From: Spirogloea muscicola
Taxonomy: Eukaryota; Streptophyta; Zygnematophyceae; Spirogloeales; Spirogloeaceae
Length of the DNA: 48,705 bases
Reading direction: 5' to 3'
Assembly: GCA_009602725.1 (NCBI GenBank)
Contig: WELB01000251.1
Coordinates: forward strand, 76,471 to 125,175
In this document: piece after piece, positions 215 through 47,800 of the stretch
Numbering within the stretch: the stretch's first letter is position 1
Layout of the letters: each line of letters starts with the position of its first letter
The notes under the pieces: generated by a model
What the model was told of the DNA's origin: nothing
What the model saw: the letters and a program-made list of their open reading frames with translations, nothing else
Databases searched by the model: none
Position numbers and translations under genes: made by a program

Positions 215-500
215 CGAGTCAGCCGCGATCGAGATGTCGTGTGTCAGCCTGTTTGCAGCGAGCTCAGTCTCATGCTGCGCACCAGAAAGCTGGTCGAGCG
301 TTAGCTGGTGGCACAAGAGCTTGTCAATTGCCGTCCGGTATTCGGGCATCAGTTGGCGATCTCTTATGTGCTGACTCGTGGTTACTGAGCGGGTCAGGTT
401 AGTAGCAGGTGATGTACATATGTCAATGTGCTTGCCTCTGTACTCGCCACTCAGGCCCTCTATTGCTCATTACACACTCCATCTTTGATATGGCTGATTG
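215..500 (+). mobile_element. 5'-truncated LINE, family A 3' end
   Basis: The codons before 390 encode the family A C-terminus (CLQRAQ, HQKAGRALAGG, then YVLTRGY and TGA at about 387-389). They are followed by the family A 3' UTR (GCGGGTCAG, TGTGCTTGCC, TTGTACTyG-like). The copy lies in the presumed first intron of the reductase gene. It is a dead fragment of under 300 bp; the full relative is the minus-strand element at 44868-48705. Confidence 0.8.
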
Positions 501-563
501 GCTCAAGAATGAAATCACTGAATCTCATGAATCTCTCCTCCCTTCACATTCTTTTGCCTCCAG

Positions 564-3500
564 ATTTACGAGGGGCACGACGCAGTTCCGTTCGCAAATC
601 GAGGCTGGCGGCGAGTTCCCACCCGAGGCTGGGCGCTACCACCTCGTCGTTGCCCGCAGCTGCCCCTGGGCGCACCGCGCGCTGTTGCTGCGCAGCCTCA
701 AGGGCTTGCAGGACGTCGTCTCGGTGGGCCTCGTGCACCCGAACCGCGACGACTCCGTCGGCTGGCACTTCCCTGCCGAGCCCGAGGCGGACCCCACGCT
801 GCTGGACGTCGCACCGGACGCCGTCCTCGGCGCGCAGCTCCTGAGCGAGTACTACCTCGCGTCCGATGCCCAGTACACCGGCAGCATCACCGTGCCAGTC
901 CTATGGGTGCGGCTCTCCCCCTTCGCCCCTTCGCTCTCAAGCTCCTGGAGTTAGAAGCCTAGTGCTCCAGCGCTCTCTCTCATATTAGACAGATATCAAA
1001 CTGGCAGCAAGTCGACCAGCTCGAAGAGTCGTGCAGATGCAACAGCTATGCAATGACGTGATGGCGTCTTGCCTTTTGCAGTAGGAGCTCTGCATATTGT
1101 TACATGCCTTTTGCTTGCGTCCGGCAGGACAGAATCTCCCAGAGGATTGTCAGTAATGAGAGCGCCGAGATCATTGTGGTTTTCAACTCCGCATTTGGGC
1201 CCCTCGCCTCGGGCCCAGACTACTATCCCGCCGAGCTCCGGGCGGAGATTGATGAGGTCAATGACTTTGTTTACCACGCCGTGAACAACGGCGTCTACAA
1301 GTGCGGCTTTGCCAAGTCCCAGGAAGCATATAACGAGGCCATCGGGGCACTCTTTGCGGCGCTGGACCAGCTGGAGGAGCGGCTCGGGAGGTGCCGCTAC
1401 CTTGTGGATACCTCCGGATATACTGGAGTTTCCCCCATCCCGACTCTCGCAGACTGGCGCCTCTTTGTGACGCTCATTCGCTTCGACGCCGTGTACTATG
1501 AGCACTTCAAGTGCAACGTCCGCCACATCCGCGACTACCCCAAGCTTCACGTGAGATGCAAGGAGGCCACACTCGAACTTGGTGGATCGAAGTGTCCTAG
1601 TCGTTGACTGGCCTGACTTCAACGGGTTTTCTTATGTGCAAAACCAACCGTTTCTCCGCACTGCTGCAACCGTCGAAGTCCCTGGTGGGTTTGTCATAGC
1701 CTGTCAGGATCCTCACTCGGTTGCACGAATGTCAGGGGTACATGTTGGACCTCTACTCGGATCCCAGGGTGGCTGCTACAGTTTCCATACCCCAAATCAA
1801 GTTGGGCTACTATTTGTCGCACAACTCCATAAACCCCAAGGGCATCGTGCCAAAGGGCGGCGATCCCTTCATCCCAGCCGTGCCCTTTGCACGCCGTGTT
1901 CTTGGTGTGTCCAAGGACGGAAAAGGAGGAGGGCAGGAGCTGCAGGGGGAAAAGGATGTAGGTAAAGGGGTGCCGTCACTCCTGGCTGGTGCGTTCGTGA
2001 GGCCAGACAGCAAGCACAGGAACTGGATCACGGCGGATGGTTCGTCCGGCTTGAAGGCTGAAGCCGGCCGGTACCACTTGTATGTGGCAAATAACTGCCC
2101 TTGGTGCCACAGGTACGAACACTTCTCAGTTAACTCCCTTCTACCGATCCAATGGCAAGCCCCAAGCCTCTCCATGGGATGTCTTGGTGACTTTACTTGT
2201 TCCAGATTCCATTATCCTTTTGGCATCCCTACTAAGGCAGGTCGTGGCCTTGGCCACTGGCTACTCGTCAATCACAGACTGCCTCTGTATTGTTGAGGAT
2301 CACAGGACCATCTTGACGAGAGCACTCCTGGGCCTGCAAGATGTGATCAGCATGGACGTGTGCTGGTTCAAGAGGGACCCAGAGAGAGGGTGGCAATTTA
2401 ACCCCGATGAGCCCGGTTGCACACCAGAGACGGTGAATGGCGGGAAGAAGTTTGTGAGGGAGATCTATGAGCTGGTTGAATCTGCCGAGAAATCGGTAGG
2501 CATGTGATGGGAACCTGTGTGCAATTCTCACTTCGCTCTTGCCAGTGTCTGCTACTCTTGCTCAATAACACGAGCTGCTCAAGATTTGGTAATCAGTGGA
2601 GACTTGACAACACGAGAACACTGTTATACTACTTCTGACATGTCAGCACAAGTGTCGCACAGGTACTGCGTTTTCTCTAAGTAAGGCTGTATTGTTGACT
2701 CAGGTCCCTGTCCTGTGGGACAAGAAAACCTAATCCATTGTGTCCAACGAATCGGCCGACATTATCAGGATGCTGGCTCAGCAGTTCAAAGCCTTCCACG
2801 CTGCTGGAAGCCCTGACCTATGTCCAGAGGCCCTTCTGCCCGAAATAGATAATGTCAATGCCTGGATATATGACTCAATCAGCAACGGAGCCTACAAGGC
2901 CGGGTTTGCTTCACAGCAAGCAGCCTATGAGCTCGCTTTTGACCACTTCTATGAGGCACTCGACAGGGTGGAGCTCATGCTAAGTCAAAACAAGTGCACA
3001 GCAAGCCTCGGCCCCATCACTTTTGATGATGAGAATCTTGCTGCGCTCTGCTTGCCTGTTGTACTCAATTTCATTTTGGTTACTTGTGCACTAAATTTTA
3101 CTAGTACTGGTGGGTAGAAGAGCGTGTGAAGACACTTGCATTTTTCTAGCATAGCTTCCTCCTCCACTTGTGCGTACATCAGATGACCTTTTTTCTCCTC
3201 CAAATAGGTATCTTCTGGGCGATGCTGTTACTGAGGCAGATGTAAGGCTGTTCCCAACCATCTTCCGACTCGATCATGTCTACTATATTCGCTTCATGCT
3301 GAACAAGGTAAGGGGCCATATCGCCGGGCAGGTCCTGACTTGAGCCTCACGTCGTCCTTACCTGCTTCTAGCTCTTTTTTCAAATTCATTCACTGTGCCT
3401 GAAGACTTGCAGGTGCTGAATATATCTCTGTGAGCCTTATGGGGTCTGCCTTTCTCAGCTATTCACTGCTCTGCTCACGACTTAGGGGTGCATTTGTAGA

Positions 3501-7229: not shown

Positions 7230-8170
7230 TTCTGGGCTGGCTTTGCACAGCCCTCGCCCCCTTGGAAAGAGCCACTTTGGTCAGTCACAGAAATCGAGCT
7301 CTTCTAAAAAACAAAAAAGAAAGTTTCTTCCAGAGGGCAGTGCAGTTCCTAAACCCGGAGACTACTTTCTCCGACCTGCGGCTGATCAACAGGGATCACT
7401 GAGTGTCTTGTAGCTACTTGATTCCCCGTCTGCTTTAGCGCTTTCCCTGGCCCCTTCGAACTTCATTCTTTTTTCTGAGCTGGCCTCTCACAGCCACCGC
7501 CCTCTCCTGGAAGCGTCTCTTTCCTTTCTTCCAGAAGGGGGCGGGGGCTGTGAAAGAATTTGCTCGCCCGCAGAGGGTAGGGGCTGGGAAAGAGAGAAAT
7601 TGCTCGCCCATAGAGAAGAGGGGCTGGGAGAGGCCAGCCCAGCTCTCCCAAACAGGGCGAGGGCTGTGACCTTCGTTCACTCTTCTTTCTGGGCTGGCCT
7701 CTCCCAGCCACCGACCTCTCCTGTCTGACCCTGTCTGACCCTCCTTTCTGACTAGAGGTTACTGAGCGTCCCCTTTGCTGACGTCTTAGTCCATAGCACC
7801 CCGGCTCCTTCAGACCTTATCCATTGCTTTGGGCTGGCCTCTCCCAGCCACCAGTTAATGTGGCCGCGCTTGCTTTGTCCTGGAAGCGTCTTTCTTCTTG
7901 TGAACTGCCAGCCCAGAAGGTGACAATAGCGCGTTTAACTACTACCTCTCACCGGAGATGGAGTGTGTATCAAGTGATGGAGGGGCCTGTGTGGCCAAGT
8001 ACAAAGAGCAAAACGCTTCCAGGAGAGGGCGGTGGCTGGGAGAGGCCAGCCCAGATAAAGAAGAAAACAAAGTTCGAAGGGGCCAGGGAAAACGTTAAAA
8101 CCCACACGGAATCAAATAGCTACACACTCAGTAACCCCTACTAAGCAGCCGCAGGTGAGAGAAATTAGTC
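7230..8170. repeat. LINE family B 3' ends and hairpin tails, mixed orientation
   Basis: Plus-strand C-termini are visible at 7358-7402 (FSDLRLINRDH-stop) and about 7740-7764 (a bare RG-Tyr-stop end). Each is followed by a tail with AGCGCTTTCCCTGGCCCCTT and hairpin GGCTGGCCTCTCACAGCC or CTCCCAGCC (7231, 7477, 7690, 7829). Minus-strand tails lie at 7540-7660 and 8160-8010. Many tails end in CTCCTGGAAGCGTC, a second 3' terminus subtype. Confidence 0.7.
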
Positions 8171-8199
8171 TCCTGTTAGCGGGTCCCCTGGCCTTGTAG

Positions 8200-8790
8200 T
8201 GTAGTCCTTTTTCGGCTCTTCTTTCTTTGGCTTTGGACATTGTCCCATTTTTTTGGGTTGGCTTTGCCAGCCCATCTTCTATGGGCGAGCTCTTCTTCCT
8301 GGCTAGGGCCAGAGGCTGCAGGGAGAGCTCGACCAGCACGGAGATGCAGCGCGCGAGCCATGGACCGCTGCAGCGAGACGGCCAAGCGCATGCGATACAC
8401 CTGCGCCAGCGAGCCCGCTGCATGGAAGTCCACCGGCTCCGCAATTCCGCGACGGGCGATAGCGTGTCGTGTGAGTTTGTGGAGCAGCTCGAGCCACCGA
8501 GCGCCCAACGCACCGTGGTGTCGATGGCGAGCGGGACGAACTCGTCGTCCCGCGGGTCGTCAGCGCATTCGAGCTCCTTGGCCCGGGCCGCGCTGGCCGC
8601 CGCATGCCCAGCCGAGGTTGCAGATCGCTTTGGGGTTAGTGTTTGTCGAAGGCGTCGGTAGTCACCCACGTCCAGGATGAGAAGCGGCCCACCGGCCAGG
8701 CCAGGAGCAGACCTCGCCCCCTCCTGACGATCGTAGGACAGAGGCGCACGCATCAGCCCCGAAATGGACGGGAGTGCAAGGGACAAGGTT
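8200..8790 (-). mobile_element. LINE family B C-terminal fragment, frameshifted
   Basis: Reading leftwards, one frame gives LLILDVGDYRRLRQ and DDEFVPLAID. After a frameshift near 8510 a second frame continues ARWLELLHKLTRHAIARR, QVYRMRLAVSLQRSMARAL and LRAGRAL. It then stops being LINE protein at about 8295, where the hairpin tail (8250-8290) begins. The final SDLLLLTRGY block is missing, so the element was internally deleted or joined to a tail. Confidence 0.75.
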
Positions 8791-9437
8791 GCGGGGCGTC
8801 AGAAGTAGGGCCGGCGCCGGCGTCAGTGTCAGCGGGCCCTTTTGCCCGCACCCGCCTCCAGCGGGGCCCACGTCCGGCCACGTGCGCGTCAAATGTACCA
8901 CCACCCCCCCCTTCCCCGCGTGAGGGGCGATTGTCCGGGCCCCGGGCCGCCGGCTGCGGCAGGTGACTCGGCGCCGGGCAGCTCCGGAGGGCGTCGCGAC
9001 GCGCTGCCCGCCGCGGACCTGCGACGAGCGCACGGCGGCGGGATGCGCCGTCGCGCTTGACGTCCGGGAGGTGGGGGAGTGGGACCCGGGGGGAGGCTCT
9101 CGGGTCTCCATCGGGATGTTTTCCCGAGCTGCCCGCCGCCCCCGCCCCGCTGCCCACTGGCCGGGAGGGGTGGGGCTGGGGGGGTGGGGGGAGCCACCGA
9201 GGCGGCGCCAAGAGGAGCGCCCGTCCAAAGGGCTTGACGTCCGTCGAGCCCACCGTTTCCCGCCGTCTCCCCCCCCCCCCCGCGGCGGAGCCCGGCGCCG
9301 CCTTTGGCCCCATCACTCCCGACGCCCCGCGAGACGTCGGGGCCCCCATGCCGAGTCCGTCTCCGCAGGTCTCCGGCGGCGCCGCGCGCGGCCCCGCCGC
9401 CGCCATCGCCATCGCGCCGCCGCCGCCGCGCGCGGCC
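8791..9437. other. GC-rich upstream region of the pyrophosphatase-like gene
   Basis: CpG-rich sequence with long open frames on both strands that look compositional. Several ACGT cores occur near 8870-8885 (CCACGTGC). It probably holds the promoter and 5' UTR of the gene that follows. I see no TATA box that I would defend. Confidence 0.4.
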
Positions 9438-11547
9438 ATGCGGCCCGCCGNTCGCCTCCCTCCTCCCGCCGCCCGCCGCCGTCGACGGTGGCGGTGACGC
9501 GAGTTCGTCCGGCGGCAGCAGCGGGCCCGCCTCGCCGGGCTCCGCCGCCAAGGCCGCCGCCAATGCCGCCGCCCATGACGGCGCGTGGCTGGACGACGAC
9601 CTCGACGTGGGCTACACGAACCTGCTCAAGATCATGCAGTCCCGCTTCCAGCCGCGCGCTGCGGCGGCGGCGGCGGCGGCGGCAGCGGAGCCCGCCGCCG
9701 GCGGCTGCCGGCACCACCACAGGCCCACGTCCTCGTCGTCGTCGCTGTCGTCGTCCACCACGACGGGAGCCGACGACGCCCACGACCTGGAGACGTACAG
9801 CCGTACAGACTCCATGAGCAGCACGGACTCGGCCCGCTCCTCCGAGGACTGCAGGAGCAGCAGCAGCGCAGGCAGCAGCGGCGCGCCGAGCCGCCGGACG
9901 TCGCTGCAGGGCGGCGCCGAGGACGCGGGCAGCCCGCTGCTGGGCAGCCTGATGCGCTATCCCTCCGACGACGCGGCGGACGACGGCGGCGGCGGCTGGA
10001 AGGTCCTGGAGGTCGGGGCGCGCGGCAGCGCCCAGTACCGCGCCATCGTCGTGAACCAGGTCCGCAGCCCCGCAGGACCGACGTCCGCAGCATGCGGAGC
10101 AGCTTGAGGAGACGCAACAATGGAGCTGAGCTCCGGCGGCCTGTGGCGGCGACGTTCGCCAGTGGCTATCACTCCGACATGGACGGCGCTGACTCCACAC
10201 TCCCCATACCATGTTGCTTTCCCTGCCTGCAGATGCGGCGCCAGGTCTCGCCCTGGCACTCGGTTCCGCTGTGCACCAGCGGCGGCCTCCTGCACTTCGT
10301 GTGCGAGACGCCGCGGGGCGAGGAGGTCGTGTGTGAGCTTGCCATGGACGAGGTCAACAACCCCCTGCGCGTCAGCCGTGACGGCGGCGGCGTCTGCCGC
10401 TACCGAGACGGCGCTCCGTGGCACGTCGGCTTCCTGCCTCAGACGTACGGCGATCCGCGGGAACCCAACAAGAGCTTCGGCGGGTTCCAGGTAGAGCCAG
10501 CCCTGGGTGGCGCCGATGCCGCCGGACGCTTGCTTGGTGTGATGCAGAGCCACCAACCACCATGAGCGCTGACGGCGCTGCTGGTACTGGTTGGCAGTAC
10601 ACGGGGAGGGCAATGGAGGTCCTCGAATTTGGCAGTAGGATGAGGCGCACTGGGGAGGTATACAAGGTCAAGCCCATTGCAGCATTCGCGGTCATTGAGC
10701 GGGAGCAGCTGGTCTGGAAGGTTGTTGCCATTGCTTGCGACGATCCCCTTGAGTCCCTCCTTCACGGCGCCCAGGATTTGGTTAGGTGAGCACCGTGTTA
10801 CGCACACGCACTTAGCAATTAACTTCTCAAATGTTACTATTACTTCCTAAGTGCATTGATGTACTATGTGTGACTTGCTATGCGACGGGTAGCCTGCGAC
10901 TTGCTCACTCTCAGACTCCAATCGGTGGGGCAGTGTCAGGCCCGGCCTGGTGGGCGAGATGAGGGAGTGGCTGCGAACGTCCACCCGGGCTGGTGACCGC
11001 TTAGAGCGGCCCAACTACTTCGGCCTCAACGAGCGCGTGGGTGGCCGGAGCTTTACCGTGTCCATAGTCAAGCAGGTGAACTTACAACAGGAATTTGTGT
11101 CCTTATAATCCACACAGTAGGTGCTGCACTGCGAAGCTTTTGTGACTGTCTGCTGTGGAGCATTGAGCTCTTGCCTTGTGGAAAGCTTTGTGGAAAATTG
11201 TCTGTGGACGGCCTTCTCAGGACCTCTGGTGCAATTTGGGTGCTTGGCAGGCACATGTCATGTGGCAGAACCTCAAGCTGCATGGTGTACCACTAGTTCG
11301 CGCCTCTAGCTATGCAGACTTTCAGCAGAGGAGCGCGGCTGTGAAACCGGGGCAGCTGCTGCGCTGCAGCCACTCTCTGCCGGCCCCCAAGCCCAGTCGT
11401 GCTCGATGCCAACTGATGACACAAGGTGATTGCGTCCGCTCTGCCATCTACTTTCTGCATGTGGCAGTATCCAATGCAGCCTACACCCCTCCTCTTACTG
11501 TGGCGTTCTTATGGTGGTGTATGCAGAGTCCATACCGTGACATATAG
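9438..11547 (+). CDS. Soluble inorganic pyrophosphatase-like protein lacking the catalytic aspartates
   Basis: The fold is that of family I soluble pyrophosphatase, closest in feel to the plant plastid type. Exons: about 9438-10059, 10233-10490, 10598-10785, 10940-11075, 11251-11547; phases agree. Landmarks in order: YRAIVVNQ, VSPWHSVPL, CETPRGEEVVCEL, GFLPQTYGDP, EVLEFGS, KVKPIAAFAVIE, WKVVAIACDDP, PGLVGEMREWL, NYFGL and AHVMWQNL. The signature DxDPxDV is replaced by TGRAMEV. The other two metal Asp sites read Glu (VIEREQ) and Val (QLVWK), and the Tyr-Lys pair after the EWFR-like motif is gone. Hydrolysis is therefore unlikely; a regulatory or structural role is inference. About 200 N-terminal residues are Ser/Ala/Gly-rich with an acidic GAWLDDDLDVGY segment. 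The start is uncertain: an N at 9451 breaks the frame between ATG codons (9348, 9438) and the clear coding frame. Confidence 0.88.
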
Positions 11548-12358
11548 AGAGTAGGCACTCAGGCTTCCTTGTTGTTCCATGTGCTTCGCAGCCGCCACTG
11601 ACAAGGACGCCTCACTACTACTGTACCCCTCGTAACACTTCCGCCTCAACGTCTGAGCTCACTAATATTTCAGCTAGCTCCTCAAGCCTGCCGGAGGTGC
11701 AATAAGTGGAGGCACAAGACATCAAGGCTGTCGAATTCGTACTGGCCCTGAACGTCTCGCCAATAAACCTCTCGTTGAAACACGGGGATGAGCCTGTCAT
11801 AAGCTGGTATTGAAGCTGCAATTGTAGCTCCAGCCGCAGGATTTGAATTCAGTAGATCTGCTTAAGCCCATCACCCCTTCCCTTGTACATTTGGCTACTT
11901 CATCATCGACAAGGCAGTGTGCCTTATAATGAAGGACTGGCTCTTGACCAGGCGGCTCACCCATGGTAGGCACAGGTGTGCTCACCTAGCTCCTCCAAGT
12001 CTTCCCAGAAGCATGTAATTTTACTTAAATACGACTGGCTGCTTGAGGAACTTCTCCATCTAGCAACTTGTGAACCAAGATGCCATTGGCGGCATGCAGT
12101 ACCTACTTCACAGAATGCCATAAGCCTGCCTAAGCGCTAAGGCATGATCCTATCTAGAGCTCGCGGTCGGATGTAAGCATGGTGGACAACAATGTCAAAT
12201 GGTTGTCGTAGTAGCATGAACCAGCGACTGGGCTGGGTCCCCACCTGACTCAGCCTTGTGCGCCATGGGAGCGCTCCCTGTGAGAAGGGTTGCCGCGGCA
12301 CATAGGGCTTACTATCCGAATGTGAGGCAACCACGTTGCTGCTCCGGTGCGCCTAGCT
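11548..12358. other. Intergenic, nothing recognised
   Basis: Downstream flank of the pyrophosphatase-like gene. Open frames here are short and unlike any family I know; no LINE tails are evident. Confidence 0.5.
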
Positions 12359-12590
12359 GTGGCTGCCAATCGCTGAGTGAGGCTGAGCCTGTGCTGTTTG
12401 TGTGACTGTGTGGCTAATCACTGAGAGAGGGCGAAGCCTGTGCTATCTGTGTGACGGCGTGGCTGAGTAAAGGCGGAGCCTGTACTGTCTGTGCGACTGT
12501 GTGGCTGATTGCTGAGTGAGGGCGTAGCCTCAGCTGTGTGTGTGACTACGTGGCTGTTGTCTGGGTGAGGGCGGGATCTGTGTGCTGCCG
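12359..12590. repeat. Minisatellite, five diverged units of about 49 bp
   Basis: Units begin with GTGGCT at 12359, 12410, 12459, 12501 and 12550. Lengths are 51, 49, 42, 49 and about 41. Each contains a GAGTGAGGGCG-like core followed by GCCTGTGCT and a TGTGTGACT end. The units differ by point changes and one 7-bp deletion, so the array is old and not an assembly artefact. Confidence 0.85.
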
Positions 12591-13020
12591 TGAGCAGATC
12601 TGCGTCTGAATCACCGAGACGAGGGTGGTCTGCTGGTCCTACGAAGAAGGGCAAATGTCCATTTGAGGAGTTTCAGTGGAGGAGACAAGAAGCGGAGGTC
12701 GCGATTGACAGGAGCAGCCAGAGCAGGAAGACTGTCACATTGTTGGTCGGAAGGGCCCCACTAGCCTGGAGCATGGTGCATAGAGAAGGCGCCCAATGCG
12801 CATTAAATGACTGAAAAAGGTGTGTGAAAGGGAGAGGCCACGCCGAGCCAATACATATTCCAAACGATAATGGCACGAGGAGCGCAGAGAACAGTGCCGC
12901 ACTAAGCGAAGCCCTCCTCGGCTAGGAAGGGATTATAAATGGGCGAAGCGCATCCGGAGGGGGACTTCAGTACCCTCGCGTGAGCTAATGCAGTCTTGTC
13001 AGGCTTAATACAGAATTCTG
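12591..13020. other. Intergenic, nothing recognised
   Basis: No gene, RNA or repeat that I can name between the minisatellite and the next LINE tail cluster, which starts with GGGCTGGCTTTC at about 13047. Confidence 0.45.
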
Positions 13021-13740
13021 GCCCTACGGACCTTGTCCTCTCATTCTGGGCTGGCTTTCAAAGCCCCCGCCCCCTTTAGATATTCCTTTGGCTGGCCTCT
13101 CACAGCCATTGCCGTACTAGAAGTGAGCTCTTCCTTGGAAGATCTCACTTCCGATGGCTGTGACACGGCCAGCCCAAGACATACGAACAAATGATATCGA
13201 AGAAAGTGGCTCTCCGAAAGAATGCTGACTGGATGGATGGTGGCGGCCCGTGACGGGCCGGCCATGGCCCTTGACGGGTGGCCGGAGGGCGAGACGGGGA
13301 GGAGCTGTGACGGACCGAAACGGGTGCACCGCTGACGCGACGGCGAGCGTTGTCTTAGAGCGGGCTCGAGTCGTCTGCGCAGGGGCTTGGGGCGGGGGGC
13401 CCGCCAAGCTATTGGGTGCTGCGGGACGTACTCGGTGGGTCCGGCCCAGCTCACGGCAACAGCGGCGGCAGATTCCCTAGTGGGCGGCAGTGGGTCCCGT
13501 GTTGGCGGGAATGGTGCCGAGTTCCATGGCTCGCGCGCTGCATCTGCGTGCGGGTCGTGCCCTAGCTGCAGCCTATGGCCCTTGCCAGGAGAAGAAAGTG
13601 CTCGCCCATTGAGAATAGGGGCTGGAACAACCAGCCCGAAAAAGAATGAACAGGGGACCCCGCTATCGGGAGCCCAGTATCGCCGACCTGCAGCTGCTTA
13701 GCAGGCGTTACTGAGTGTTTCGTAGCTGCTTGCTTCCATC
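13020..13740 (+). mobile_element. LINE family B tails and a C-terminal fragment
   Basis: Plus-strand tails lie near 13047 and 13087 and a minus-strand one near 13150. A degenerate plus-strand LINE body follows: from about 13530 it reads SMARALHLRAGRALAAAYG. It is then interrupted by a minus-oriented hairpin tail (13590-13650, GTGCTCGCCC start). LINE end sequence resumes as ADLQLLSRRY-stop near 13690-13713, so a tail has inserted into an older copy. Confidence 0.65.
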
Positions 13741-29220: not shown

Positions 29221-29650
29221 ACTCAGACTACCCCCGCAGTGACCACCTCCTCCCGGCCGCAATCGACACTTTCGGCTGCTTGGGTCCTCGCTTCCATACC
29301 CTACTCGAGAACATAGCGAGTCTGGGATATGCACGACGCGAGGATATGCTCCCAGCCCAGATGGGTATGCCGGCAGCCTATCTGTCATTTCTGCGACGTC
29401 GAGTGTCAACCTGTCTGCAACGAGCTCAGGCGTATGCTCTGCATCAGAAAGCTGGTCGAGCCTTAGCTGCTGGCACAAGAGCTAGTCAATTGCCGTCCGG
29501 TATTCGAGCATCAGCTAGCGACCTCTATGTGCTGACTCGTGGTTACTGAGCGGGTCAGCTTAGCAGCAGGTGACGTACATTTGTCCAATGTGCTTGCCTT
29601 TGTACTTGGCCACACATGGCCTCCCCATCTCTTAATATACACGCATTTTC
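29220..29650 (+). mobile_element. LINE family A C-terminal fragment
   Basis: Coding begins abruptly after the family C tail: YPRSDHLLPAAIDTFGCL, RFHTLLENIASLGY, LPAQMGMPAAYLSFLRRRV, HQKAGRALAAG and SDLYVLTRGY with TGA at 29547-29549. The tail contains GGCCACACATGGCC, a small hairpin. The 5' truncation falls just downstream of the endonuclease Lys block. Confidence 0.85.
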
Positions 29651-32204: not shown

Positions 32205-34389
32205 TCATGGTCTTTCGTCCTCTGGTTCATCATCCACCTCGTCCTCGTCCGCGTCCTCAAATTGCTCTGTGCTAATGTCAAGCTGACACGGAAAGATGTG
32301 AAAAGTGAGAGTAGATCCCACCGTTAGAAGTCCAGTACGCAGAATCGTTCTGCTGCCATCACTAGAATGACTAGGCAAAGCAGCAGGCAGCTCCTAAATC
32401 TGCTCGGACATGATGACCTGCGTTTCTCAGCTGCTTACAAAGCGACTAGTCAATATCCATTGACTGCTACAAACAAAGTTGGGCCATCAACCTCGTCAAG
32501 CCCGTGACCACCATTATGTGTCGCAGCTCCAGGAGCCAGAACTTCGTCTGAATTGAAGAACCATTCCCCTTCGCCCTCTTGCTCTGCTCATGCCAGGTTT
32601 GACAAAGCAGATGAATTATAGTACCAAGCTGTCCTCCTGACGTTAAGTCTTATATCCTAACTGCAGATCCGATCTGCATGATTAATATTGGACCTTACCA
32701 TTGCTCAAGCTTTGCCGTGAAATCAGTACTTACCTACTACAGGGTCAGGGTTCAAGGCTGCGCACTCGCACAGAACTTGGAATATGCGGTCCACTGTGCG
32801 GGTCATTGGTGGTCAAAAGGGAGGGGCAAAAGTGCACAAATTGAATGTCAGTGAATGAGAGAAGTGACGGGGGCGCTCCTGATCCATGCACACAGAACTG
32901 CCGTATGAGTACAAGGCTCTTTGGCAGACTCAAAAAGCACCTGATTGCAGGAGCTCTTGTCCACCTTGTCAGGTTTTATTTAAGCCCCTTCAAGCGTGAT
33001 CTGACCAAGAACAACCCTGCTACAACGGCGTTGACTGCATGCACTTACACGTGCTTGGATCATTGGGGACTAGCCGCATCTCCTTCACAGCTGACAGGTC
33101 TTCAACAGTTACAGCCTCAGCTGCCATTGGGTCTCCCTCAGCTTCCTCATCCCCATTGATGCCCACATGATCTCCATCATCATCTTCCCTGCCTTGAATC
33201 TAGAACCCCATGCGTTAGGCTTGCAGGCGATGAGCACGGTGGTAGAGGTCTAAGCGAGCAATCCTCAAGCACTTGACCTTCACAAGATGCATATAGCGCC
33301 AACAGTGGAAACATCTGATGCAAGTGAAGCCAGTAGACCGGGAGATCTGACGGGCCAGGTTGTTGCTTTGGCATGCTTACCTGCATGTAAATGCACGGGT
33401 GGGGGTACGCATCTGTGTCTCTGGATATGGCGTGCATTGTCAAAGAGACAAAATCAACAGCATAGCCTTCTTGCAAGTCTTCGTCACTTAGCCACACGAG
33501 CCGCCTGCAGAACGAAGCTTGGACAGATAGAAATTGACCCATATTAGACGCACGTTTGGCTTTCAAGCAATTGCAGAGACTAGCACACAGAGCTACTGAT
33601 AGTGTAACGTCAAAGGTAACAAGCCATTGAGATCGCCTGGACTGGTCAATTCAAACGCTCAGGCCAACCTAAGAATCCTGGTCGACCTCCTTAATTCCTC
33701 TGAGGTCCTTGAAGCTGAAATATGGGAAACCCCTGGGACGCCCCATCTACGTTGTAGCTATGAGTACCTGCCTCTCGTGAGATACTTAGACCCTGGTCCT
33801 TCTACGGGAAGAGCCCTCCACTGATTCATCCCTTATCCGTTTACCTAGCTCTAAATGTGAAGCATCCTATAAATGTCCACACTGAACCTGACTGCACCTA
33901 TGGCTGCTCTGGTCGCGCCTCTGCACGGCAGGACCTCAGCGGCCGTTAGTAAGGCGGGCCGTTGCCCGCGACTTGTCACTGACTCAGTCCCTGCGAGCGG
34001 CTGCTGATACGTCTGCTCTTGGACGCTGCCTCCCTTCATTGGAGCAGCCCGACGAGCTCAGGACGGATGCCAGTCTCTGTAAGGGCATCGGGACGGTAGC
34101 CTCGCCTAGTGGTCACGTAGAGCTTGCCGGGCCCGGTGCGCGGGCCGTCTCCCAGCACGGCCGCCACCTGCGACTGTACGAGCGCCACCGTCTCGCCGCC
34201 ATCGCCGCCGTCGCCGCCGGCGTCCAGCACCGGCAGGCCCTGCACAGAAGGGCGGCGGGCCGTCAGGCGGGCCGTCCAGCGGCGGGCTAGCTAACGAGCC
34301 GAGCGTGGCGCGGAAGCGGGGCTGGCGTCTGAAGGCCGCGCCTGGGGGCCGCGCTGCGGGGCGGCGACCAGGCCGCCGCCGGGCGCCAT
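32205..34389 (-). CDS. ICLN: pICln, methylosome/snRNP assembly chaperone (CLNS1A/ICLN)
   Basis: pICln carries Sm proteins to the PRMT5 methylosome during spliceosomal snRNP assembly. Exons on the minus strand, all in phase: 34239-34106, 33504-33381, 33199-33049, 32793-32734, 32583-32471, 32282-32205. A short first exon may start at ATG 34389 (MAPGGGL). The product is about 226 residues, the usual plant size. Landmarks: GETVALVQSQVAAVLGDG, PGKLYVTT, RRLVWLSDEDLQEGYAVDF (the PH-like fold), HAISRDTDAYPHPCIYMQ, then KEMRLVPNDPST, LDRIFQVLCECAALNPDP, GEWFFNSDE, and an acidic end ISTEQFEDADEDEVDDE with TGA at 32205-32207. The acidic tail is typical of the family. Intron 33505-34105 has a GC donor. 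Most exons are under 160 nt, so simple ORF scans miss the gene. Only the first exon is uncertain. Confidence 0.94.
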
Positions 34390-35085
34390 GGCCGCCGCGT
34401 CCGCCCCCCCGCTGCCAGCGTCATGGCGGCCCCGCCGAAGGGCGCTACCAAGAATCTGTGATAGCGCTGATCGGGACAGGCCCCCTGCCCGCGGTCCCGG
34501 GGGGCACCGTCACTCTGGGATATGGCTTCTTTTCGTTGTTTCTGGTATTATTGACGGTGCTCATCAAGCGCTAAGAGACGACACTCCCTTTCTTCAGTTC
34601 CATGCGCTCGGCTGCGACTTCGCCCCGTGTGGCCCCGCCGTCGTTGTCGTGTTGCGTCGGCCTTCTTCACCTTGATCGGAGGGCGGGTCAGCCAGGGGAA
34701 ACATGTCGTATATGCGAAACACTCGAAGGCCACGCACAAAGGCACATCAAATGACGTAGCATCTAGCAATTAGTGAAGCTGCTAGAGAATAGGGCAGCAC
34801 CAGTGGCAGGCGAAGGTGAAGGGATGGGGGGAAAGGAGGGCCGGCAGAGCCCCTGGGGGCCTTTCCTGCGTCCGCTTCTGGAGCTGTAGAGGAGTGAGGC
34901 AGTAGTAGTGGCAGGAGGAATGGAGGGGGGGGACAGAAGAAGAAGATGGCTCGCCCACAGAAAAAGAGGGGCTAGCAAAGCCAGCCTAGAAAAGAATGGA
35001 CAATGAGGGAAAGAGGGCCGGAAGTGCCGATTGGGGCGTTGCCGACCTGTCCTGCTGGAGCTGCTATAGAAGACGTGTGTATTAA
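34390..35085. other. pICln upstream region, then LINE-related repeats
   Basis: 34390-34700 is GC-rich and probably holds the pICln promoter. 34780-34930 contains GA-rich pieces also found at 6600-6700 and 35315-35355 (TGGAGCTG..GAGGAGTG, GCAGTAGTAGTGGCAGGAGG-like). A minus-strand hairpin tail lies at 34950-34985. Confidence 0.45.
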
Positions 35086-35089
35086 GAGA

Positions 35090-35310
35090 TGGGGAGGCCA
35101 TGTGTGGCCAAGTACAATGGCAAGCACATTAACAAATGCACGTCACCTGCTGCTAAGCCGACCCGCTCAGTAACCACGAGTCAGCACATAGAGGTCGCTA
35201 ACTGATGCTCGAATACCAGATGGCAATCGACAAGCTCTCGAACTACCAGCCAAGGCTCGACCAGCTTTCTGATGCAACGCATGAGCCTGAGCTCGCTGCA
35301 GACAAGCTGG
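35090..35310 (-). mobile_element. 5'-truncated LINE, family A 3' end
   Basis: Inverse complement of SDLYVLTRGY, TGA, GCGGGTCGG and the TGTACTTGGCCACACATGGCC tail. The upstream limit is near 35310, where a repeat shared with 34900 begins. Confidence 0.75.
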
Positions 35311-40100: not shown

Positions 40101-42496
40101 GTGGAGCCAAAGCCATGAACGGCTGGCAAGTGGAGATTGCAGTAGCTGGCAAGGAGAGATCCTTTGTCAGTGTAGTAGGAGAGACTGACGACGTTGACCA
40201 GCCGCAGGAGCAGCCGGACATGCCCAGCCAGAGCTCTGGGGAGTATACACCAGCACAAGAGGAGTCCCTGATGAGCCCCACCCGCCCTGCAGCAACTGGC
40301 AGCAGCGGGCGTGAGGCTGTGGGGGATATTGCAGTTGCTGCAGCGCCAGATGGCGATGTCCAAGACACCATGCAGCATAGCACCAGCAAGCTACCTCCCA
40401 ATCAGCAGGTCACCTCACTTGCTGGGTCCAAACAAGCAGTTTGCAGCAAGGAGCAAGCCTTACGTAGTAGCTGCACTAGCTCGTCAGGAGCAATGAGCTT
40501 GCATGCTCCTGAAGGACTAGGTGCACAAGCAGAGAAGGGACAACTCCAGGAGCGTGGGGACGATTTTCCTGTTGAAGCTGAAACGGACACTCAGAGAAGC
40601 ACAGCCAATGTGACCCCCGCAGGTTCATCAGCTGCATGGTATCGACTATATCTCAGACTGATTCGTGCAGACTGCTGCTTCATAGATGCAGACGAGCCGT
40701 GTCTTCTTTGCACTCATGTAACCTATGCGTAAATGCAGCACAGGGTGGCCATCTGCAGCCTGACTTCACACGTGTTAGTGTGTACCTATGCAGTGATTCT
40801 CATCAGCATCACCACTTGCTACCCAGCTTGTCTGAAGACCCAAAGTCACAGGCTACTGAGCGCAGCACTATTGAGAGGCACCTCGCACGTCTCATGCAGC
40901 AACAGGAGGAGATGGTGAATCTCTTGCAGGTAATCTCTCAGCAACATCTCGCTGGCATCAGTGCTGTTGCAATATAACATGCATCTGTGTTGAGTCACTC
41001 AAGCGCTTTTGCACACAAAGCCGGCAGCTTGTGACATTGCAAGTCAATGTGGAATGCGGTGAAGATCTTCCTGCAGTGGATCTTGAAGTGTAGCAATCCC
41101 CTCACAATGTTACATTTGATGTCTGAGTTCAGATGAGAGCCATGTCTTAGTATAAGTTGCTGCCTGCAAGTATTGCATCGTCTTGGCAGTACAGTTGCAG
41201 TCCAACCTTCCTCTTCAGAGCTAGGAAGTAAGCACCCCGGATTACTCAGTGCATTGCTTTTTATGTCTTTGCTCAGAGGTATATGAGGAGCACAGAAGAT
41301 GCTCTTGGGGGGATGGAAACCCGCCTTCGGGGGTTGGAGCGCACAATTGAGCACCTGAATCGGGACATATCAGTGCAGACTGCCACTACACAGAAGGTGC
41401 CGCTGTCCCCACAATTGCACGAGAATCCTGGAAGTTCGCAACAAGAGCAGCATGATGTTGTGGTACCAGAGAGCCGATTAAGTGCTGGCAGACAGAAGGT
41501 TGCTATATGGCATGGGGACAGTATCCAAGAACATGAAGAAGGGAGGTGGTTGAATGTCAGAGGAGGGGTTCGAGAGGCACCAGTTGTTGGTGGATCCCGA
41601 CAACGAAAGTCGAGAGCACGTTGGTTCTTTGATAGCATGGTGAAGAACGAGGATACTTATCGTGAGTCGGGTATGTTTAACATAGACTCTGACAGTTTTG
41701 GTTATCCAAGTGAAGTCAAAGCTTCCACTCCGGAGGTAAGGTCACACAGTAGGAACAGAGCCACAGTGGACCTTGATTCTGGCCATTTGGATATGCTAAA
41801 CGACAGATGGCCGGCCATGCAGCCAAGTGTCTGGAGCTGGGCATGGGTTCAGGACCTGGTCAAGAGAGGGGATGTGGACTGGGCGTATGCGGAGACGCTT
41901 CGGATGAACGACAATGGCATACTTGTGAGCCTCATGGGCCGCACGGGGCCAATTATAGGCCAGCTTTCTCGGGAGGTCTTGATGGAGCTCCTGCAGAGGT
42001 TGTTGGTGATGCTGCAGGAGAGATCATCAAGAGACTGCGTTTTACCTTGGATGAGTCAGGTGAAGGAGGCAGACGAGCTCTTGTCGACTGGGTGCCAAAA
42101 CTGCTTGCATGTCAAGTCTAGGGCAGCAAAAGAAGCTGAACTCGAATCTAGGGATAGAACTCGAAGCACCATTCCTTATATCGTAACATCAGGTCGTATT
42201 CAGCTGAATGTAGTGGTTGCTTGCCCTACTCCTAGCAGAATCATGACCTGCTTGATGACAGCTTCATCTCCGTGTGTCTTTTTGTTGCTCAGCTTTCTGA
42301 GCTGGTTGGGGAAGGGCATGTCAACTGCAAGGAGCTGGACCCTGCCCTGAAGCTGGACATAGTCGTGAAGCTTCAGCACGTGGCCGAGAGCAGCGAAGAC
42401 GGCGGTGGTTGGGAGAGCCTTGTCAGTGGGCAGTTGGCTGCGGAGCTGGGCAGTGCCTGGCTCGGTGACATACGAGGCACCTCGAGGCAGCAATAA
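37124..42496 (+). CDS. TORTIFOLIA1/SPIRAL2-like microtubule-associated protein
   Basis: The plant family binds cortical microtubules through N-terminal HEAT repeats and controls minus-end stability and growth anisotropy. Eleven exons fit in phase: 37124-37216, 37542-37731, 38007-38168, 38481-38522, 38710-38942, 39150-39344, 39539-39626, 39849-40622, about 40838-40929, 41277-42059, 42293-42496; total 951 codons plus TAA. HEAT region landmarks: IELKQRIVWAISKLGDRDTQ, LYDSELQQKSFARKECVRL, RFRDADSSVRDTCAETLG, FIRPIFEAMSEQ, LCPRVAKLL, NDWMTRRAVCELS, VKPVRDAAIGALDQWK. A long Ser/Pro-rich linker follows, then a coiled segment (RHLARLMQQQEEMVNLLQ, METRLRGLERTIEHLNRD) and the conserved C-terminal domain (WAYAETLRMND, LMGRTGPIIGQLSREV, LSELVGEG). 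Arabidopsis TOR1 is about 860 residues. The acceptor of exon 9 is the least certain point. Confidence 0.95.
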
Positions 42497-43810: not shown

Positions 43811-43904
43811 TCATTTGGCCCCTTCGAACCTTTGTCACTTCTTTCCGCGCAAGAAGGAGCGGCACTACCAGGACCATCCCCGGGGGGACCATCTTTACCG
43901 AAAT

Positions 43905-44265
43905 GCGTGTGTATTAAGGGATGGGAAGGCCATGTGTGGCCAAGTACGAAGGCAAGCACATTGACCAATGTACGTCACCTGCTTTTAGGCTGACCCGCTC
44001 AGTAACCACGAGTCAGCACATAGAGGTCGCTAACTGATGCTCAAATACCGGACGGCAGTTGACAAGCTCTCGAACTACCAGCTAAGGCTCGACCAGCTTT
44101 CTGATGCAACGCATGAGCCTGAGCTCGCTGCAGACAAGCTGACACTCTATTTCGCAAAAATGATAGAGAGGCTGCCGGCATACCCATCTGGGCTGGAAGC
44201 ATATCCTTGCGTCGTCCATATCCCAGACTCGCTATGTTCTCAAGTAGGGTATGGAAGCGAGGACC
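43905..44265 (-). mobile_element. LINE family A C-terminal fragment
   Basis: The minus strand reads RFHTLLENIASLGYGRRKD, LPAQMGMPAASLSFLRNRV, AHALHQKAGRALAG, then the SDLYVLTRGY-stop context near 44000 and the TTGTACTTGGCCACACATGGCC-type tail down to 43905. It is truncated at 44265, where a plus-strand LINE piece begins. Confidence 0.8.
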
Positions 44266-44867: not shown

Positions 44868-47800
44868 TATTAGAAACAAATGTAGGTCAAATGGCCAAGT
44901 ACAAAGGCAAGCACAAATAAAGATCTACATAACCTACAGCAGATTGACCCGCCCAATAACCACGGGTCAAAACATAAAGGTCACTAATCGATGCATGAAT
45001 ACTAGATGCCAGAAACTGAGCCCTTCTGCCACCAGCTAGAGCTCGCCCAGCTTTCTGGTGCAAGGTACTAGCCTGAGCACGCTGCAAACAGGCCGAAACT
45101 CGTCGCCGCAAAAGCGACAGATATGCAGCTGGCAAGCCCATCTCAGCCAGAAACACATCTGCGCGTCGAGTGTAGCCTAGATTGGCAATGCTTTGAAGGA
45201 GAGTGTGGAAACGAGGACCCAGACAGCCAAAGATGTCGCTTGCCGCTGGCAGGAGCTGATCGCATTGGGGGTACTCGGAGTAGTGCCGCAGTTTTCTTTG
45301 CTCTGCACCGCCCACCGCGTGCCCAGCGATGTGTGTCGATGCTGGGCCTTTATATGCCTCCATAACAACAACGTCGACCAGGGCCCGTGGTCCCCCACCA
45401 GGTTGCACGCCACAATATCAAGTGTGCGGCGATGATGACGTCCCTGGGCGTCCGTGGTGATAGGCATGATATTGTTGACTTCCACGACCGCACGGTAGCC
45501 GGTGTCGCGCATCAAGCCCGCCAGGGCATCGCGAAGGAGGTTGTGAATGCCCACCACTTCTGGTCCAGTGGGGCATCTCAGCATGTGAGTGGCGAGCACA
45601 GCACCCTCTGCACGGAAGCCGCACTCGCACTGGCGCACCCCAATCAGGCAATTAGGTGGGAGGCCGAGGAAGAGTTGAAGCGATGTCCGAAAGGCCTCGG
45701 AGCTGATGCTGAAGGCGTTGGCGACGGGGGGAGAGGTGATCCAGTCAGTGGCACCAGGTGTGGCCAGAGAAGTGAGTCTTGCCAAGCTCCTCGGATTGTT
45801 CTGAATCTCTGGCAGCCTCCTCAACCTTCTGCGGCGTTCGTCTTCCACTGCCGTAACCAGTCTGGATTGTGCCCCTCTATCAGAAGCTTGGGCGAGGGTG
45901 GAGAATGGCGTGAGTAGGGGTTGGAGAGAGGGGAAAGAGCTGATGGCTGAGTCGCGGATGCTCCTCAGATCCGCTTGGAAGGGGAAGGAGCCTTCCTCCA
46001 CATTGCGTACAGGGTCGTGGAGGCAAGGGAAGCGCATGGGGAGCAGGGAGGCGATCTGGTGCCAGCAGCCCAGGAAGGCTGCTTGCGCCGTCTGCTCCAA
46101 CGACCGGCAGCCAAGGCCGCCCATGCGAGTAGGGAGGGAGGCCTGGAGGGAAGCTGAAGCTGAGGGGAAAGATGAAGAATGTAGTAGGGCTGCCAGGGAC
46201 TGCTGAAGGGAGTCATCATATTCCTTGTAGAGCTCCGCCACCATGCCCAAGGGGGCGACTGTCCGTTGCAGATAGCAAGCCCGTTGGCCGATGCAGCGGG
46301 TGAGGATGGCCAACGCCAGCTGCGTATCCCCAAGGAGGGGAAGGGAAGGGAGGGGGGCGAGGTGTTTGTGAAGGCGTTCCCGCAAGTCCACTGCCACGTG
46401 AGCTGGTGTATGGAAGGGGACCTTGAGGATGGCCAGCCCATTGGCAGGGGTCTGACAGCCGTGGGGGAGCTGAAGGTTGGCAGGGAGACCGCGTGGGGAC
46501 CAGGCCACGCTCTTGGACGGGCAAACCTGCAGGCCCATCAGGTCCAATTCGCGAACGAGCAAGGGGTAAGCCGCTATGACTTCAGCTGGAGGTCCAATGA
46601 TGTGTGTGTCATCCGCGTAGGAAGGGAAGAGGAGGTCTGGGTGTTGGCTCTGAGTGCGCCGATTAGCCCGGCAATGTGCCAACGCAAACAGGATTGGGCA
46701 AGGGGATCCGCCTGGCGTGTGCCAGAAGATGACCACAGCGTCTTCCATGACTCACCGGCTTGCCACAGCAGCCGCCCTGGGCGGCCATAGGCCATGAGGA
46801 TATAGGGTATAAGGGAAGGGAAGTGATCGCGCAGCTCCTCCATGATGACGCTGCGCTCCACTGTGTTATAGGCGTTACTGATATCCAGCCTAAGGACCAT
46901 CACTGAAGGGTCCACGTCGAGAGCTGCACGGACGCCGTGGATGAGGGCCTCCACCCCGCAGGACATGCCAGCACCAAATTGGTGGGGCGATAGATGGCTG
47001 GTCAGCTGGGTTTCAGCTCGTTGCACACGGCCTTTGATACCAGCCGCATGACAATCTCCGTCATCGCAATGGGTCTGATACCGCCTGTTGGCTTCGCAAG
47101 GGCTAGCAGGTGGCTGGAGTTTAAGGCATCGGCAATGCGTGGTGGAATGGCAGCCCTAAAATGTGCCGGCAGGTGGACAGTAACAAGGAGAAGCTCCTCT
47201 CATCCCCATCAAGCAGTAGGTCGTGTAGGTGCTCAAAGAGCCATCCAGAAGGGCCTCCAGACATCATCCGGGGGGCTTTGGTCAGGGCCACATGGAGCGC
47301 CTCTGCCGATAGGTCGAGAGGGTTGGGGAGCTCGCCAGCCCAGGGCTCAAGGGGGTGTTGTGGAGGGGGGTGGAGCTGTCGCAAGATAGCCTCTGTGGCG
47401 TCATTGGTAGTAGCCAGGGGGTCAGGGCAAAGGGCCTGAGCGGCCCGGGAAAGTTCTCCTACCCTGCCAAAGCGTCTTGCCCGCGCTAGATTGCCAGCTG
47501 TGGACTGTTGAGAGGGCTGGTTGACTGATCCATTGCGCGCCCGCCGCTGAGAGAGCGTGACCCGAGCAGCTGCTGAACGCTGCTGAGCCAACTCCTCCCA
47601 TTTTCCACTTGTAAATTTAGCCAGTCTGTCTTGGAGTGTCTTGCGGCCTCTGACGCCAAAAGAGGGAAGATGGCCAAGAACAAGCTTGGGAAAAAGCATG
47701 TACAAGGCCCAGGCCGCCTCGTCCATAGAGTCCGCTTCGATACGAGCAAGGTAAGGCGTAAGAACCTTGGTGCACTCACGACGTGCCCATCTGGGAGTGT

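Follow-up and report, generated by a model that had tools for sequence, protein, structure and literature searches.

In family I inorganic pyrophosphatases (PPases), divalent metals held by five aspartates activate water, and pyrophosphate (PPi) normally binds the yeast enzyme as a metal complex. These are very conserved housekeeping enzymes. In the literature searched, which had most subscription journals outside its scope, neither a pseudo-PPase nor a pseudoenzyme branch was found described, which fits the remark in a first-pass annotation of the present locus that no plant PPase relative of its kind was known. The trypanosome prozyme is reported to be a catalytically dead paralogue that is kept and regulates an active one (eLife 2016 e20198, PMC5201418). 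The locus compared here with these systems lies in a stretch of 48,705 nucleotides of Spirogloea muscicola (the window; C251:76471-125175), and the genome searched comprised 153 Mb in 471 contigs, which are referred to by labels such as C251 (carrying the window copy), C116, C1 and C79.

Gene structure and domain homology

The window gene comprises six exons on the forward strand, from 9439 to 11635, joined by GT-AG introns throughout (Table 1). Two other copies were found on contigs C116 and C1, and the three together are called group C. The open frame claimed in the first-pass annotation stood, but its count of five exons did not, six being given by the GT-AG introns kept in the three copies; its end at 11547 gave way to one at 11635, the stretch 11426-11591 having been read as coding. 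This stretch is an intron, because its borders are kept in the three copies, it contains indels of 1 base and 7 bases between copies, and all three copies have their stop at the same codon after it (TAA in the window gene and TGA in C116 and C1). The C-terminal model was drawn from the alignment of the copies and reused as query, so that for the window copy the result repeats the model; the C116 and C1 copies fit it with zero frameshifts. The start is uncertain: an N at 9451 puts the ATG at 9438 outside the reading frame of the printed exon 1; in C116 an in-frame NTG lies just upstream (by eye), and C1 reads N there. Exon 1 encodes an N-terminal extension of about 180 residues, rich in Ser, Ala and Asp, which bears out the long Ser-rich extension noted earlier, and then the start of the PPase domain (WKVLEVG...VVNQ). 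Downstream of the stop, a TGTAA motif, which we take to be of the chlorophyte type of poly(A) signal, is no more than suggestive of such a signal, with other TGTAA motifs nearby.

Table 1. Features of the window, numbered from its first base
Feature	Position	Strand	Remarks
Exon 1	9439..10059	+	Open frame, donor GTCC; from 9457 aligned to two other copies with triplet indels only
Exon 2	10233..10490	+	SPWHSVPL...GFLPQTYGDP...GGFQ; E48 and E58 kept, K56 and Y93 missing
Intron 2	10491..10597	+	GT-AG in three copies; three forward frames without D-x-D-P or D-P-x-D
Exon 3	10598..10785	+	YTGRAMEV replaces GDNDPVDV; EREQLVWK replaces DEGELDWK
Exon 4	10940..11075	+	PGLVGEMREWLRTST...; Tyr-Lys pair gone
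Exon 5	11251..11425	+	AHVMWQNL...; domain end and C-terminal tail
Intron 5	11426..11591	+	GTGA..GCAG in three copies; non-triplet indels within
Exon 6	11592..11635	+	AATDKDASLLLYPS, then stop TAA; same stop codon position in three copies
TGTAA, possible poly(A) signal	12172..12176	+	533-537 bases past the stop in each of three copies
Glutathione S-transferase-like gene pieces	406-1604	+	GST_C_2 8.9e-11; GST_N_2 1.3e-4, below cut-off
Second similar GST-like piece	near 1700-2500		By eye
Voldacs match (regulator of volume decrease after cellular swelling)	33183-33650	-	8.1e-9
TORTIFOLIA1 C-terminal domain	41232-42347	+	E 9.9e-21; presumably a plant microtubule-protein domain, and as such a hint of the green lineage
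524-residue open frame with YADD stretch	45180-46751	-	Resembles a retrotransposon reverse transcriptase by eye; zero Pfam matches at 0.01
Dispersed repeats of about 150-190 bases	306-484, 29471-29650, 35068-35238, 43888-44070		Also near the C116 and C1 copies; probably mobile-element pieces

The window protein matched PF00719 with an E value of 6.7e-14 and 52.4 bits (curated cut-off, 23.5) over profile positions 1-152 of 153, that is, above the curated cut-off and over nearly the full length. Among solved structures, 25 chains were matched at E values up to 0.001; the best was 8j7q (7.3e-22; query residues 4-202 of 206), itself an altered form with GANAAIAV at its metal site, followed by 6c45 (2.5e-21), which reads GDNDPIDV and which we take to be the human PPase. 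The window copy is 27% identical to the yeast enzyme, 30% to the human enzyme and 39% and 45% to two paralogues of the same genome, E and D, respectively. The framework residues kept are S-x-x-H, P-R after the E48 strand, G-xx-PQT-xx-DP, E-x-G, G-x4-VK, WKV, PG and W-x-R, and the family-frame motifs reported earlier (SPWHSVPL, CETPRG, GFLPQTYGDP, WKVVAI and PGLVGEMREW) all fall in one gene, in exons joined by GT-AG introns. By homology that spans the whole catalytic domain, the window gene is one encoding a family I pyrophosphatase fold.

Active-site residues

Residues are numbered as in the yeast enzyme, with a ruler sequence that equals 1m38 over 234 residues, and the list of metal and phosphate ligands in this numbering is the one we assume for the active site. 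The five metal ligands D115, D117, D120, D147 and D152 read T, R, E, E and V in all three C copies; the earlier statement that all five aspartates are replaced is thus literally right, two of the changes (D120E and D147E) being conservative Asp-to-Glu ones. The enzyme signature D-x-D-P-x-D reads TGRAME in the window gene, and the first-pass readings of this site as TGRAME(V) and of the DEGExD site as EREQLV were both recovered in exon 3, as was the loss of the later Tyr-Lys pair, which reads Ser-Thr. Only K154 is kept in register among the phosphate ligands K56, R78, Y93, K154, Y192 and K193, the C copies showing K56V, Y93V or Y93I, Y192S and K193T or K193S. R78 is ambiguous, the ungapped alignment placing a Cys there and an Arg at the next residue. 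E48, E58 and K154 are retained in the C copies.

The comparison then turned to positions that do not vary among paralogues A (C91) and E (C71) and the yeast and human enzymes, in and out of the active site. The window copy kept 3 of 13 active-site invariants versus 34 of 60 elsewhere (Fisher P = 0.035), with the same counts in C1 and with 3 of 13 versus 35 of 60 in C116 (P = 0.031), so that the contrast for C is modest (P = 0.031 to 0.035). In the two fuller copies of paralogue D, 3 and 4 of 13 were kept versus 39 and 42 of 60 (P = 0.011 to 0.012).

A D-x-D-P-x-D motif was found neither in the forward frames of positions 8000-13000 nor in 8-kb regions around the other two copies (one of which, L029, holds 2803 N), in a scan that would miss a motif interrupted by an intron, which is the case in paralogue A. 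The halves D-x-D-P and D-P-x-D were likewise absent from the forward frames of positions 9400-11700 and of the corresponding regions of C116 and C1; the positive control, paralogue A, gave DNDP. On these scans an alternative exon in or near intron 2 with the motif, intact or divided, was rejected, and the exon that had been envisaged at 10490-10598 is unsupported, because neither DxDPxD nor its halves were found in the forward frames scanned.

Copies, paralogues and selective constraint

The three C loci are collinear, with the same active-site losses, open frames and five introns in all of them. DNA similarity to the window copy extends into the flanks (C116, 87% over 8298-12693; C1, 92% over 9457-13225, with N read upstream of 9457), and since introns are kept and similarity continues beyond the gene, the loci are chromosomal segments, not retrocopies. 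Silent divergence among copies (NG86) was 0.09 to 0.14 for C (core), 0.13 to 0.18 for A, 0.16 for D (C79/C1) and 0.17 for E, and 0.24 and 0.35 in D pairs with the truncated copy on C70. Three loci were found for five of the six PPase groups described below, and the four groups measured (A, C, D and E) resemble one another in silent divergence; the three loci in most groups, taken with this similarity, suggest a triploid, hybrid, three-haplotype or subgenome assembly.

Whole-genome searches gave 28 exon-level matches with PF00719 and 36 with the window protein, and by models and listings the PPase loci form six groups, mostly of three loci each. Groups A (C53, C91 and C282) and E (C71 and C308, only two loci found) are of the eukaryote type with all 13 invariant active-site residues intact, so that the genome apparently also has intact PPases. 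Group B (C51, C197 and C103) is a second PPase type, group C (C251, C116 and C1:1231949) is altered and group D (C79, C70 and C1:743910) is a second altered subfamily with one truncated locus. Group F (C12, C230 and C108; L030, L031 and L032) is of the bacterial type by eye, with two of three matches under the Pfam cut-off; its translations, also by eye, read AGDNLDAVV in place of the expected DGDPxDV, with the first aspartate missing and two retained, and NGDVDDK farther along, and it may represent a third PPase group that is altered in part. No relative in viral contigs (39 pattern matches) or prokaryote genome contigs (49) was confirmed by tblastn.

At the five aspartates, D reads G, K, E, E and Q; E48 is lost in the two D copies that reach that position, Y93 is kept and the N terminus is acidic. 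The third D copy (C70, L024) has unrelated sequence in place of the 5' exons and is either a truncated copy or an assembly join. C and D formed a clade with support of 100/100, or 100/99 with the active-site columns left out, and the split of E, C and D from the remaining sequences had support of 97/95, E being the nearest intact relative of C on the tree; the tree program gave a long-branch warning on both trees. Three intron positions are common to C and D and absent from A and E (columns 116, phase 0; 178, phase 2; and 226, phase 0), the C79 model stopping short of the one at column 226. The first intron differs, lying at column 27 (phase 0) in D, like A, and at column 23 (phase 0) in C. 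Since a sister subfamily lacks the same five aspartates, their loss looks old and most likely predates the C/D split. The N-terminal extensions of C and D showed no detectable similarity, none of six pairings beating shuffles (228 to 937 of 1000 as good or better), so that a shared regulatory tail is unsupported; a likeness seen by eye (GAW...DVG...LL) was rejected on the same shuffles.

One reading of these replacements is a neofunctionalised enzyme, whose pocket, with its new Glu, Arg and Cys, would bind and act on a different substrate. The acidic D120E and D147E, the persistence of E48, E58 and K154 and the sameness of the pocket in the three copies would suit such an enzyme, but the remainder of the metal cluster is lost through D115T, D117R and D152V, and the other letters of D (G, K and Q) at these sites leave no common new active site conserved; we regard this reading as improbable.

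The dN/dS comparison proposed in the first-pass annotation was run and gave values below 1 for the C core (0.17 to 0.38). By NG86 these were 0.173 for C251-C1 and 0.368 and 0.376 for the other pairs (lower by YN00, 0.13 to 0.28); the full coding sequence gave 0.29, 0.38 and 0.42 and the N-terminal extension 0.39 to 0.43, where YN00 was unstable. In D, values were 0.23 for C79-C1 and 0.30 and 0.32 for pairs with C70, and among the active paralogues 0.10 for E and 0.015 to 0.032 for A, so that by dN/dS the constraint on C is 5- to 25-fold weaker than on A. When the observed base changes were placed randomly on the sequence (5000 permutations, six directions), 64 to 68 amino-acid changes were expected in full-length pairs with C116 and 41 to 42 in C251-C1, versus 49, 52 and 27 observed; permutations gave counts as low in 0, 0, 0, 0, 0 and 2 of 5000 for full C and in 0 to 53 of 5000 for the core, the pairs with C116 having the weakest signal (up to 53 in the core). 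From 9457 on, leaving out the first 18 bases with the N, exon gaps were multiples of three in six of six rows, all in exon 1, versus 3 of 13 rows of intron gaps between C copies. Missing stops alone were not significant, 1.1 to 2.1 being expected per full-length comparison. Third-position GC was 0.84 to 0.85 in C (0.77 to 0.79 in the core) versus 0.55 for intron GC of the window copy. On these sequence measures, the constraint on C is moderate.

That the C genes are redundant duplicates in slow decay under relaxed selection, with no present function, is about as improbable as the new enzyme. Their dN/dS lies well above that of the active paralogues, and in the D copy on C70 the 5' part is replaced, as decay would have it; against this stand the significant deficit of amino-acid changes, the triplet-only exon indels, the splice sites and stop conserved in three copies and the persistence of two subfamilies on a long shared stem.

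Function and comparison with known systems

We consider it likely, with a probability of roughly 0.7, that the window gene encodes a pseudo-PPase that is maintained, does not hydrolyse PPi and serves as a binding or regulatory module. It is a homologue of an enzyme family without the essential catalytic residues and with a selection signal of moderate strength; the first-pass view of a maintained pseudoenzyme rather than a dead gene accords with the open frames of three copies, the triplet exon gaps and the amino-acid change deficit, at that moderate constraint. Because the metal-binding aspartates are lost, the C protein would have no metal cluster, and hydrolysis of PPi by the family mechanism should be impossible; with K56, Y93, Y192 and K193 gone, it would also be expected to bind metal-pyrophosphate poorly. 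A sensor that binds PPi or phosphate without hydrolysis and passes the signal on is slightly less probable than the new enzyme or the slow decay weighed above, for although the protein retains E58 and K154 and has an Arg adjoining the R78 position, K56, Y93, Y192 and K193 are lost together with all five Asp ligands, and PPi is normally bound as a metal complex. An annotation or assembly artefact, with the real DxDPxD in another exon or a misassembled stretch, is very improbable, as the N at 9451 is a local uncertainty near the start, whereas three contigs agree and the motif and its halves are absent from the forward frames scanned.

For the pseudo-PPase we therefore envisage that the retained barrel, what remains being mostly framework, may serve as a protein- or ligand-binding module. 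The long Ser-rich and probably disordered N-terminal extension could be a regulatory tail, perhaps phosphorylated; an RRTS stretch occurs in it in two of three C copies. The most likely single job would be the control of another protein through binding, and the plainest guess for the partner is one of the active PPase paralogues (A or E), which we offer as a tentative and rather doubtful candidate. Chances seem about even that C and D represent an old two-branch pseudo-pyrophosphatase family in green algae, derived in a single event from an intact PPase, with at least two subfamilies that have different rewritten pockets and N-terminal tails and a regulatory or scaffold role, not acting on pyrophosphate. 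A retained branch without the aspartate cluster is a natural test of the role of the barrel without catalysis, and the C genes may be a lead to a protein that regulates pyrophosphate or phosphate metabolism in algae. They are also a warning for annotation, since the PF00719 score alone would label them active pyrophosphatases.

With the trypanosome prozyme the proposed role shares the principle of a dead paralogue as regulator; the enzyme is unrelated and the partner of the C protein putative. The acidocalcisomal pyrophosphatase (PDB 5cuu) carries its PPase domain late in a longer chain, the match covering residues 196-406 of 414. Paralogue E, the nearest intact relative, differs from C in its intact active site and in other intron positions. 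Paralogue D is like C in the loss of the same five aspartates and in the three common introns, and unlike it in its replacements, in keeping Y93 and losing E48, in its acidic N terminus and in a first intron four columns away. Yeast IPP1 and human PPA1 (family I, PF00719) share with the window protein homology over the whole domain and 34 of 60 invariants outside the active site; the window protein differs from both in the replacement of the five Asp ligands and most PPi ligands and in its long Ser-rich N-terminal extension.
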